Positions 61,774-64,000 of a stretch of 64,000 bases of DNA are shown piece after piece (position 1 is the stretch's first letter; each line of letters starts with the position of its first letter). The notes below the pieces were generated by a model. It did no database searches and was not told where the DNA came from. It worked only from the letters and a program-made list of their open reading frames with translations. A program made the position numbers and the translations under genes. Source of the stretch: Winogradskyella litoriviva. Its GTDB lineage: Bacteria > Bacteroidota > Bacteroidia > Flavobacteriales > Flavobacteriaceae. The stretch lies in assembly GCF_013249065.1 (NCBI RefSeq), contig NZ_JABRWQ010000005.1:186001-250000 (forward strand), written 5' to 3'.

Positions 61774-62448
61774 TTAGTGGCAAATATATTTATCTATAAT
61801 ATATTTTGTTATTTGTTTCAGAGTTTTACCTGTTTCAGGATGTAAACCTAATGCCGTAAAATATTCTATTTTTTTATTATTATTCTTTCCGTACCAAATT
61901 CTAACACTTCCATCTTCGTTAAAGAATGAATAACTGCATGTTGGATTAATTTTTTTAAAGTTATTTATTCTTTCTTCTTTATATACTTTTAGTTGGTGTA
62001 AATCGTATTTTTCTGTATCGAAGTTGACTTCAATATAGTGATTTTCATTCCAAATCATCCAACGTTGTGTTGTTGCAGAATTATAAACTAATAGTCCAAT
62101 AATAAGTAATATAGAAACCATTATTGTAATTCTGTTTTTTCTTAAAAAGAGCTTTAAACTCTTATCTTCTTTTATTTTATAATCTTTATTCTTAGCTACA
62201 AATTCATTGTAATCTTTATAGTCTAGATAATGACTTAAAGCTTCTTCAGCATGTTTTTTTAAGCGAATATTTGTAGAAGTGCCGCTTTGTAACGCTTTAA
62301 ATTTTTCTCTCAAAATTCTTTCCCCATATGGTTCTTTGGTATCATTTATAATAAAATCAGAAAGGTGTTGAGATCTTGGTGAGACATGAAAAGTGTTAAT
62401 TTCTATTGCGGCTTTTTCGAAAGCATCGTTAAGTAGTTTTTTATGCAT
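61774..62448 (-). CDS. Hypothetical single-pass membrane protein
   Basis: 224 residues. A cytoplasmic N-terminal half of ~105 residues (HKKLLNDAFEKAAIEINTFHVSPRSQHLSDFIINDTKEPYGERILREKFKALQSG...EEALSHYLDYKDYNEFVAKN) has a compact helical motif ending 'YLxxKDYNEFV', seen in several uncharacterised Bacteroidota proteins. One membrane helix (RITIMVSILLIIGLLVYNS, about 108-126) is followed by an extracytoplasmic domain with Trp, Cys and mixed strands (QRWMIWNENHYIEVNFDTEKYDLHQLKVY, CSYSFFNEDGSVRIWYG). Function unknown; a sensor-like layout is inference. Divergent from the structured region and peptide gene at 62.6-63 kb. Confidence 0.55.
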   Translation of the reverse strand: MHKKLLNDAFEKAAIEINTFHVSPRSQHLSDFIINDTKEPYGERILREKFKALQSGTSTNIRLKKHAEEALSHYLDYKDYNEFVAKNKDYKIKEDKSLKLFLRKNRITIMVSILLIIGLLVYNSATTQRWMIWNENHYIEVNFDTEKYDLHQLKVYKEERINNFKKINPTCSYSFFNEDGSVRIWYGKNNNKKIEYFTALGLHPETGKTLKQITKYIIDKYICH

Positions 62449-62799
62449 TTTATTAGGGTTAATCGTGTTTTAAAGTTACTAATTTGTATTGGAAAAATAA
62501 TGGAAATTCTTGTCCAAAACCTTTCCGTATTATTTCCATTGTTTCCAAGGTATTCTTCATTCATTTGTTTAAGAATTAAATGTCGTCTTACTCGCAATAA
62601 GGCTTGCGAAGTTTAATTTTTTATTGGAACCGTGGTGTAATATCAACTTTATTGGGAAGGTAAATCACATTTACTTCACGGTTCCATACTTCCCAATGAA
62701 GAGAACTCTCTTCAAAACTTAATGGGTGTTGCTAAGCAACTAAGCTTCCGAGAAATTCTCGGACAGCAACACTATTGTCAAATTTTTAAATCAGATAAA
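62449..62799. other. Intergenic region between divergent genes, holding the structured element
   Basis: This 351-base interval between the membrane protein (minus) and the peptide gene (plus) contains a CGCAA/TTGCG hairpin (62593-62608) and the structured array at 62625-62772. No exact TAnnTTTG promoter was found for the plus-strand genes. The 62449-62590 part has A/T-rich imperfect repeats (GGAAAAATAATGGAA and TTCCATTGTTTCC) but no clear gene. Confidence 0.45.
62625..62772 (+). ncRNA. Dense array of inverted repeats, potential pseudoknotted RNA or mobile repeat
   Basis: Two long pairings interleave: TGGAACCGTG (62625-62634) with CACGGTTCCA (62677-62686), perfect 10 bp; and CTTTATTGGGAAG (62647-62659) with CTTCCCAATGAAG (62689-62701), 13 bp with one G-U. 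Order A-B-A'-B' is a pseudoknot. A GTAAAT/ATTTAC hairpin (62660-62674) nests inside. Next come GAAGAG/CTCTTC (62698-62713), an outer GTGTTGCT (62726-62733) / AGCAACAC (62765-62772) stem, and CCGAGAA/TTCTCGG (62748-62762). An alternative GTTGC/GCAAC hairpin (62728-62740) competes with the outer stem. It ends 27 bases before the small lipoprotein gene, so it may be its leader RNA; no known riboswitch is recognised. Confidence 0.5.
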
Positions 62800-62955
62800 A
62801 TGAAGAAAATATCTATAATTTTGTTTACGGTTTTCCTCAATGCTGCATTTGTGTCATGCAATCCAGAGAGTATTACGGATAATAATGTACCACAAGCGTG
62901 TTGTGGAGACGGAAGTGAAGTACCTCCACCTCCTCCAAAAGATGAAGGTGGATAA
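62800..62955 (+). CDS. Small lipoprotein-like peptide with Pro-rich C-terminus
   Basis: 51 residues starting at ATG 62800; 26 further in-frame codons upstream lie within the structured DNA and are unlikely to be used. MKKISIILFTVFLNAAFVSC is a clear lipoprotein signal (VSC). The mature part is only about 32 residues: acidic, then QACCGDG, then five consecutive Pro and an acidic tail (KDEGG). There is no room for a folded domain, so it looks like a precursor of a secreted or surface peptide. The next gene, 27 bases on, encodes an exported TPR protein, so a peptide-sensor pair is possible (inference from layout). Confidence 0.65.
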   Translation: MKKISIILFTVFLNAAFVSCNPESITDNNVPQACCGDGSEVPPPPPKDEGG

Positions 62956-62982
62956 TTTAATAATTGTTATTACTTTAGAGGA

Positions 62983-64000
62983 ATGAAATCATTGAAAACT
63001 TCATTCCTCTTTTTTGTATTAATTTTTATTAATAAACAGAATCTCTTTGCTCAACAAAGGCTTGATAGTTTAGCTTATTATTCAAACAAAGCACTACATC
63101 CCCAAAATTACAATGACCTTATTGATTCATATGATTTTTTTAATAAGGCTTACTCAGAAAGTATAGAAAACCAAAAGCCAAAGAAATCTGTCCATAATTT
63201 ATACTATATAGCCAGTGTAGAATATAAACTAGGTGACTATAATAAGAGTGAGAAATCAATTGTTAAAGCAATTAGCTTATTAGATAAATTACCTAATTCA
63301 GCATTCAAAACTCAAACAAGAAATAGTCTATATATCCTAATGGGATTAATTTATATAGAACAAAGAAATGAGTCAAAAGCAGTAGAATTTTATTCTAAAG
63401 CTTTAGAAAAAGCTGAAAACCCATTAGATAGTGCCAAAATATATAATAACATGTCATTAATATATGCTGAAATTAATGACTTCCAAAAAGTAAAACAAGA
63501 ATTAGAAAATGCATATAATTTATTACCTAGGATAGAAGATGCCTTAACTAAATCAAATATTTTAAACAATTTAGGAGCTGCTGAGAACGAACTGGATAGC
63601 ACAAAAGGGTTAGATTTATTGCTTAAAGCATTAGATATTAGAGAGTCTGTTGGCGATAACTCCACAATGTATTCCAGTTATGCACATTTATCAGATTACT
63701 ATTATAAAATCAATAATAAAGTAGAATCTAAAAAATATGCATTAAAAGCTTTTGAGCTAGCTGAGATTATTAATTCACCATCATACAAAGAGAATGCACT
63801 TAGCTTATTAATACGATTAAGCGATGATAATTATGCCAAAAAATATAAGATTTTAAATGATAGCCTTAGTAATGCCAAGCAGCAAACTAAAAATAAGTTT
63901 GCATTGATGAAATATGACGCTTCTGAAGCTAACAGAAAAGCATTAGTGGCACAATTAGAAAATGCAAGACTTAAAAATACGAGGTTAGTTTTTATCTTAT
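62983..64000 (+). CDS. Exported TPR protein, probably N-terminal part of a TPR sensor/regulator
   Basis: Open from ATG 62983 to the window edge (339 codons seen) with no stop. Signal peptide about 1-25 (FLFFVLIFINKQNLFAQ), then about six TPR units: SVHNLYYIASVEYKLGDYNKSEKSIVKAISLL, LYILMGLIYIEQRNESKAVEFYSKALEKA, IYNNMSLIYAEINDFQKVKQELENAYNLL, LNNLGAAENELDSTKGLDLLLKALDI, YAHLSDYYYKINNKVESKKYALKAFELAE. The visible end (KFALMKYDASEANRKALVAQLENARLKNTRLVFIL) is the coiled-coil/membrane transition typical of Bacteroidota TPR histidine kinases or TPR-LuxR regulators, so an output domain is expected beyond the window. Preceded closely by the small peptide gene. Confidence 0.8.
   Translation, partial: MKSLKTSFLFFVLIFINKQNLFAQQRLDSLAYYSNKALHPQNYNDLIDSYDFFNKAYSESIENQKPKKSVHNLYYIASVEYKLGDYNKSEKSIVKAISLLDKLPNSAFKTQTRNSLYILMGLIYIEQRNESKAVEFYSKALEKAENPLDSAKIYNNMSLIYAEINDFQKVKQELENAYNLLPRIEDALTKSNILNNLGAAENELDSTKGLDLLLKALDIRESVGDNSTMYSSYAHLSDYYYKINNKVESKKYALKAFELAEIINSPSYKENALSLLIRLSDDNYAKKYKILNDSLSNAKQQTKNKFALMKYDASEANRKALVAQLENARLKNTRLVFIL

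Follow-up and report, generated by a model that had tools for sequence, protein, structure and literature searches.

The agr/RNAIII system of Staphylococcus joins a peptide gene, a kinase, a response regulator and a structured RNA with a small ORF in one autoregulated unit. Promoters of the Bacteroidetes have the -7 consensus TAnnTTTG. Flavo-1 is one of the RNA families of Rfam 15. It is described, with reference to PMC2864571, as an RNA motif widespread in the Flavobacteriaceae, with matches that lie sense or antisense alike, many of them outside transcribed regions (PMC9723704). That study reports 64 structured 5' regions in F. psychrophilum, and its section on 5' cis-regulatory RNAs names pheA, hisG, ftsY, acsA, alaS and rimP as conserved examples (PMC9723704).

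Here we describe a leader RNA of about 230 nt (62570-62799) from the window, which is the whole 64,000-nucleotide stretch of Winogradskyella litoriviva DNA that was analysed. The leader's 5' end lies directly after a promoter-like TTCATTTG and its 3' end at the ATG of a 51-aa lipoprotein gene. A kinase gene comes after the peptide gene, and a response regulator gene follows the kinase, outside the window. The features around the leader are as follows.

61774-62448, minus strand: divergent gene MHKKLLNDAFEKA, with similar proteins beside many Winogradskyella leader copies
62511-62546, plus strand: TTTCC-type repeat array, with repeats starting at 62511, 62522, 62533 and 62542, the first being TGTCC
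62560-62567, plus strand: TTCATTTG, promoter -7-like box directly 5' of the leader
62800-62955, plus strand: gene for the 51-aa lipoprotein/peptide, MKKISIILFTVFLNAAFVSCNPES...CCGDGSEVPPPPP, with similar small peptides 3' of the RNA in relatives
62827-62841, plus strand: ACGGTTTTCCTCAAT, codons 10-14 of the peptide gene (ACG GTT TTC CTC AAT), with synonymous-site constraint
62977-63015, plus strand: terminator-like hairpin AGAGGAATGAA/TTCATTCCTCT with a T-run, overlapping the kinase start codon
62983-64000 and past the window end, plus strand: TPR sensor histidine kinase gene, followed by the response regulator gene; TPR_12 above cut-off, HATPase_c and Response_reg below

Rfam 15 gave no match at the gathering threshold in the window or in 20 divergent loci, consistent with the statement of the first-pass annotation that the region matches no riboswitch class it recognised. 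When six loci were searched up to E 10, there were 12 matches, all below gathering scores, and Flavo-1 was absent among them. Four of the 12 were SpF39_sRNA, and the three of these shown as alignments fall on the terminator-like hairpin after the peptide. A tRNA/tmRNA scan found none. Flavo-1 and the leader are alike in being widespread flavobacterial RNAs, and differ in that the published orientation of Flavo-1 is mixed (PMC9723704). The F. psychrophilum examples named in that study precede genes other than this peptide (PMC9723704), and one of the 64 structured 5' regions that it counts may be the present element. A literature search covering titles and abstract openings found no paper on this element.

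Helices of the leader

The first-pass annotation had described a cluster of perfect inverted repeats at 62625-62772, the first two of which cross each other. Stem A (TGGAACCGTG/CACGGTTCCA, 62625-62634/62677-62686, 10 bp) is present as described. Stem B (62647-62659/62689-62701) is also present and crosses stem A, but it reaches 13 bp only with one G-U wobble. A repeat search of the window found it 92% complementary over the 13 bp. Only a core of 8 bp is conserved, and the 3' end of the stem reaches into the next hairpin. Further stems were found at 62697-62703/62708-62714, 62726-62733/62765-62772 and 62747-62754/62756-62763, and both proposed partners of GTGTTGCT are there, GCAAC at 62736-62740 and AGCAACAC at 62765-62772. 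The density of stems is indeed beyond chance: positions 62618-62800 fold at -53.8 kcal/mol versus a shuffle mean of -31 (sd 3.5), a z of -6.5, and none of 200 dinucleotide shuffles was as good. The cluster is therefore real, but its limits were drawn too short, as the true start of the element lies about 55 nt further upstream. Inside P1 there is a second crossing pair that had escaped the earlier reading, GTCTTA/TAAGGC with CGCAA/TTGCG at 62585-62608. The dense stems belong to a larger folded leader and do not form an isolated cluster. The helices are listed below.

62571-62621, plus strand: P1 (62571-62581/62611-62621), enclosing the crossing helices P2 and P3
62585-62590/62598-62603, plus strand: P2, which crosses P3
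62593-62597/62604-62608, plus strand: P3, which crosses P2
62625-62686, plus strand: P4, which is stem A extended by 62637-62640/62671-62674, with an apical P5 on top in relatives
62652-62696, plus strand: helix B, TTGGGAAG (62652-62659) with CTTCCCAA (62689-62696), which crosses P4
62697-62714, plus strand: P6 hairpin TGAAGAG-AACT-CTCTTCA, from stem search, folding and relatives
62726-62772, plus strand: 3' domain, with P7 (62726-62733/62765-62772) enclosing P9 (62747-62754/62756-62763)
62762-62765/62776-62779, plus strand: P10 (tentative), GACA/TGTC, which overlaps P9 and crosses P7

P5 cannot be made out clearly in the sequence of the window itself. The 3' domain, made up of P7, P9 and perhaps P10, stops about 20-30 nt before the start codon. 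A simple terminator scan gave one terminator-like site, at 62592-62609 inside the P2/P3 unit (shuffle mean 0.4); we attribute it to part of P3 and an adjoining T-rich stretch and do not take it for a working terminator.

Comparative tests of the fold

Alignment A2 was made with MAFFT, which is blind to structure, from 32 of 42 leaders that precede a small lipoprotein gene; the ten left out were divergent. P8, a possible small stem of 4 pairs between P7 and P9, was rejected as unaligned, with 5 to 12 of 27 to 32 sequences paired per position, and was removed before the A2 counts, as were two outer pairs, in P1 and B, that formed poorly. The 62 remaining pairs, in 10 helices, were paired in 90.6% of 1965 cells, versus 83.8% in shuffles and 38-46% when one strand was slid. 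Pairing was 95.5% in P1, 96.8% in P2, 97.5% in P3, 92.6% in P7 and 98.7% in P9. Both sides had changed in 37 of the 62 pairs, versus 20.9 in shuffles.

Compensatory changes falling on the same branch were counted on a tree built without the helix under test, with four slid controls. There were 50 such changes in total, versus 2, 6, 1 and 4 in the controls. P1, P2 and P3 had 4, 8 and 5, and P7 and P9 had 3 and 4, with none in the slid controls for any of these helices. The counts for P4a, P4b and P5 were 6, 3 and 11, where the controls reached at most 0, 2 and 1, so that P4b shows little excess. Helix B had 4 and P6 had 2 among these 32 sequences, and P6 had no excess over its controls. In an all-pairs covariation test with tree-based nulls no pair of the 32-sequence alignment reached E < 0.05; the four best of its 27,495 column pairs fall in P5, P3, P2 and P5. 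These tests are not wholly independent of the model, because the helices were partly read from the same sequences.

A2 contains 96 G-U pairs versus 38 A-C pairs. This excess places the fold on the same strand as the peptide gene. Only P6 is reversed, with 14 A-C and 10 G-U.

Helices B and P3, which cross others, were left out when covariance model R1 was built, and helix B was then read in 82 R1 matches of the family. Five core positions were paired in 80-82 of 82 sequences and a sixth in 79 of 81; the two outermost positions pair less (63/82 and 32/69). The most variable core position was paired in 81 of 82 sequences, as G-C in 52 and A-U in 29, and all 12 of its five-prime changes share a branch with one of its 13 three-prime changes on a B-free tree. 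Two other positions had 5 and 3 joint same-branch changes, this test having covered three of the eight positions of B. Compensatory changes in stems A and B, which the first-pass annotation had proposed to look for, are therefore present in both (P4a 6, P4b 3; B up to 12 joint). P3 aligns poorly in distant members, where 27-42 of 44-51 sequences were paired. Taken together, the sequences indicate that both crossing pairs are conserved. The connectors between the crossing strands are short, 0-3 nt, so the sequence is compatible with crossing helices that either coexist or alternate.

It had been proposed that GTGTTGCT switches between its two partners. A local stem of length at least 5 can be formed in 23 of 32 sequences, yet shuffled loops form one at a mean fraction of 0.50, and a conserved local alternative to P7 was not above chance in the 32 sequences. 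The proposed switch is not borne out. Most sequences could also form P10, a GGACA/TGTCC helix in competition with P9 and across P7; in alignment A3 its pairing can be made, per position, in 60-75 of 78-79 sequences. These positions are mostly invariant, and with so little variation P10 stays unproven.

P6 is weak or absent in some lineages, and TTTT follows the P6-region hairpin in 26 of the 91 sequences having one. Palindromes recur after helix B in relatives, for example GGAGTACTCC, AGAGACGTCTCT and AAGAAGCGCTTCTT, and are more than a plain hairpin needs. Starting from 145 sequences and setting aside 13 in which no B pairing was found, a perfect palindrome of at least 10 nt was present in the P6 region of 58 of 132 relatives, versus 4.2% of shuffles, a comparison in which the loci are related and not independent. 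The window's own P6 copy has no such palindrome. These palindromes could reflect RNA dimers or a protein site.

Distribution and copy number

BLASTN found one copy in the genome of origin and matches in 29 of 149 genomes, that genome included; among the weakest matches, some are short and have ORFs of other kinds next to them. Within the family, R1 matched 76 of 397 genomes, representing 65 of 237 genera; it also matched 43 of 395 genomes of the order and 22 of 395 genomes of a phylum sample (5 of 170 genera). Of the 22, 21 belong to the same family and one to another family of the order. The family, order, genus and phylum samples overlap, and the genome of origin is in each. Carriers include Lacinutrix, Olleya, Subsaxibacter, Muriicola, Gilvibacter, Aequorivita and Flagellimonas. 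Among 68 genomes of the genus Winogradskyella, the lipoprotein was found in 23; of these, 22 also gave a match to the RNA, which was found in none of the 45 others. Lipoprotein matches lacking an RNA-model match are L036, a second copy in G067, and G032:C91:164258-164380, the only one in G032. Genomes of the same genus share identical leaders with W. marincola, W. luteola, W. eckloniae and W. thalassocola.

A matching genome carries a single copy or, in some cases, two. In genus g162, two leader-plus-peptide copies lie about 7.5-9.4 kb apart, within about 12 kb (L237/L238, L239/L240, L241/L242, L243/L244). Many dispersed copies per genome, the mark of a REP-like or mobile repeat, were not found. 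BLASTN and R1 each gave a single copy in the host, R1 gave one or two in other matching genomes, and the context before a peptide ORF was the same in the 114 loci examined. The suggestion that the cluster might be a multi-copy mobile or REP-like element is not supported. These data also bear on the broader idea that the repeats act as DNA, as an operator, a cruciform or a recombination site. The palindromes of the P6 region speak for it, with the relatedness of the loci noted above, while the excess of G-U over A-C pairs points to one strand as RNA, and the low copy number and constant position before the peptide gene stand against both a DNA element and a mobile repeat. We consider either to be highly improbable.

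The peptide gene and its cassette

The family and order samples gave 120 distinct R1 matches, and the context analysis covered 114 of them. ORFs were picked automatically, except that L148 was placed by hand and the peptide of L192, where the automatic pick was wrong, was read separately. A small peptide ORF of 28-90 aa follows all 114 matches. Most of these ORFs start at the end of the R1 model, which itself includes the ATG. An ORF of at least 200 aa starts within 320 nt after the peptide in 104 of 114 loci. A loose lipobox pattern was present in 103 of the 114 peptides; the eight peptides from the second carrier family lack the lipobox, though their start is still hydrophobic. Recurrent features are a GEDG- or GDDG-like segment and, towards the end, prolines. 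Export of the peptide is predicted because of these lipobox-like or hydrophobic starts, and the locus thus has a small, putatively exported peptide beside a kinase and a regulator. The 51-aa peptide of the window had no Pfam or NCBIfam match above cut-off.

In the four kinases scanned, TPR_12 was at or above cut-off and HATPase_c below it in 4/4, and in the three regulators scanned Response_reg was below cut-off in 3/3. Peptide types and kinase lengths were compared in L161-L246. CC-type peptides go with kinases of 488-557 aa (15 loci), and GEDG/TEGDDG-type peptides of the window's own family with kinases of 603-692 aa (25 loci). Six GEDG/TEGDDG-type loci of the second family have kinases of 547-562 aa, and GPGD-type peptides mostly go with 564-584 aa. 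The match of type and length hints at coupling of peptide and kinase; shared ancestry could also explain it.

Codons 10-14 of the peptide gene are constrained across genera. Of 23 TVFLN peptides, 17 have an identical ACGGTTTTCCTCAAT segment and 4 more differ only in CTC>CTT. Two of the codons are rare, ACG making up 10% of Thr codons and CTC 7% of Leu codons in the long downstream ORFs. Neither a partner nor a function was found for this segment.

Two observations concern neighbouring genes. The divergent gene at 61774-62448 was matched by nothing in Pfam or PADLOC, and in NCBIfam by nothing above cut-off. A gene with an HSDR_N domain, like the N terminus of a type I restriction R protein, lies after the regulator in L209 (4539-5546) and L232 (4247-5314), and a similar ORF was seen by eye in L161 from 5019 (all three in reverse-complement numbering).

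Promoter, repeats and terminator

In 93 of 114 matches a TTTG lies no more than about 22 nt upstream of the model start, versus 14% of shuffles, and a looser -7-like box occurs in 100 of 114 versus 35% of shuffles. The window's own box fits TAnnTTTG only in part. A simple promoter scan found sigma-70-type sites to be no commoner than in shuffles. Upstream of the box are repeats about 11 nt apart, most often TTTCC; at distances of exactly 59, 48 and 37 nt upstream of the leader, a TTTCC begins in 25, 18 and 23 of the 114 loci, respectively. The window's three-repeat pattern has one exact match in its own genome, at its own locus; with one mismatch allowed there were three more genome sites, and one control site. 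The TTTCC array may be where the regulator of the cassette binds. In other lineages TGTCAA-, GTCTAAAA- or GGAATT-like repeats stand in roughly this position. The types of upstream repeat may track the DNA-binding specificity of the regulator.

A strict terminator, a hairpin with five or more T, was found after the peptide in 87 of 113 loci, versus 8 of 1130 shuffles. A looser scan (109 of 114) is uninformative because 46% of shuffles also pass. The window's hairpin was unlisted by a simple scanner, which takes loops of 3-8 only. In many relatives the terminator's 3' arm and T-run encode an SFLFF motif near the N terminus of the kinase. Given the terminator-like hairpin after the peptide, the likely unit is a transcript of about 445 nt that runs from the promoter box to the hairpin, with read-through to kinase and regulator; we infer its transcription, and the position of its start, from the sequence.

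Such a unit would also fit a dual-function RNA like staphylococcal RNAIII, in which the short transcript is the main output of a regulator-driven promoter, the fold acts in trans and the ORF makes the peptide. The unit is self-contained, peptide, kinase, regulator and RNA occur together, and the only exact genome match of the operator array is at the window locus. However, the RNA was never found away from the peptide ORF in the 114 loci examined, as expected of a cis element, and constraint extends into the ORF in only part of the family, the 23 TVFLN peptides. We regard action in trans as unlikely, if far from negligible.

When the complete unit was folded by prediction, the start codon had its partner in the early coding region (62793-62801/62818-62826) and almost no pairing to the leader, so simple masking of the start by the leader is unsupported. 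This prediction, and the lack of a conserved alternative at P7 among the 32 sequences, would suit a constitutive 5' structure, one that does not switch and serves to protect the mRNA or to help its translation. The two crossing units, kept by compensatory change over many genera, exceed what a stabilising hairpin needs, and a purely constitutive role seems decidedly improbable.

Interpretation

The leader is probably a new cis-acting RNA that belongs to a peptide/TPR-kinase cassette and adjusts peptide output as well as read-through, with feedback from the regulator. The leader would be the 5' part of a short transcript that encodes an exported lipoprotein peptide of about 50 aa and then reaches a terminator; the TPR sensor kinase and response regulator would be made by read-through. 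Folding as it is transcribed, the RNA would form a 5' domain with two crossing units (P1 with P2 and P3, and P4/P5 with B), then P6 and the 3' domain. Refolding of the crossing helices, set off by a ligand, a protein or a ribosome event, would in cis set the level of peptide translation and how far transcription continues; both the trigger and the direction of this control are putative. By binding the TTTCC array, the regulator probably drives its own promoter, giving a feedback loop around the peptide, which the kinase may sense. No ligand pocket was identified in the leader, and this counts against the cis-leader reading. So do the pairing of the start codon with the coding region, the failure of the proposed local switch, the all-pairs test with nothing at E < 0.05, the weak showing of P6 and, to a degree, P4b, the poor alignment of P3 in distant members and the short connectors.

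Of the interpretations offered by the first-pass annotation, that of a structured leader RNA of the peptide gene is supported by the compensatory changes in both crossing pairs, the strand asymmetry and the context in 114 of 114 loci examined. The switch at GTGTTGCT and the mobile repeat are not supported.

The RNA is a large conserved family that has no Rfam 15 match at the gathering threshold in the loci searched, that has strong comparative support for its crossing helices, and that, across many genera of a single bacterial order, goes with a TPR kinase and a small, putatively exported peptide. Should the cassette prove to be a peptide-signalling circuit, it would be a concrete, testable candidate for peptide communication in the Bacteroidota with an RNA built into the loop.

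Comparison with known systems

The leader resembles structured 5' leaders and riboswitches in having a promoter-proximal fold directly before a gene, crossing helices and compensatory change. As in a riboswitch, a conserved structured region lies in the 5' leader, and a receptor role is putative. Unlike riboswitches, this leader has no Rfam match at the gathering threshold and is linked to a signalling cassette and not to a metabolic gene. With agr/RNAIII the locus shares a small peptide, a sensor kinase, a response regulator and a structured RNA with a small ORF in one unit. It differs in that it is found in another phylum, the kinase is of the TPR type, and the RNA lies 5' of the peptide gene in the same operon. 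By analogy, the locus might be a Gram-negative counterpart of agr/RNAIII, a flavobacterial peptide-signalling circuit in which a promoter driven by the regulator yields a short double-pseudoknot RNA that both encodes the signal peptide and regulates, and in which transcription reads through a conserved terminator, one that overlaps the kinase start codon, to give kinase and regulator; we put this forward as a speculation that is quite unlikely to hold in full.
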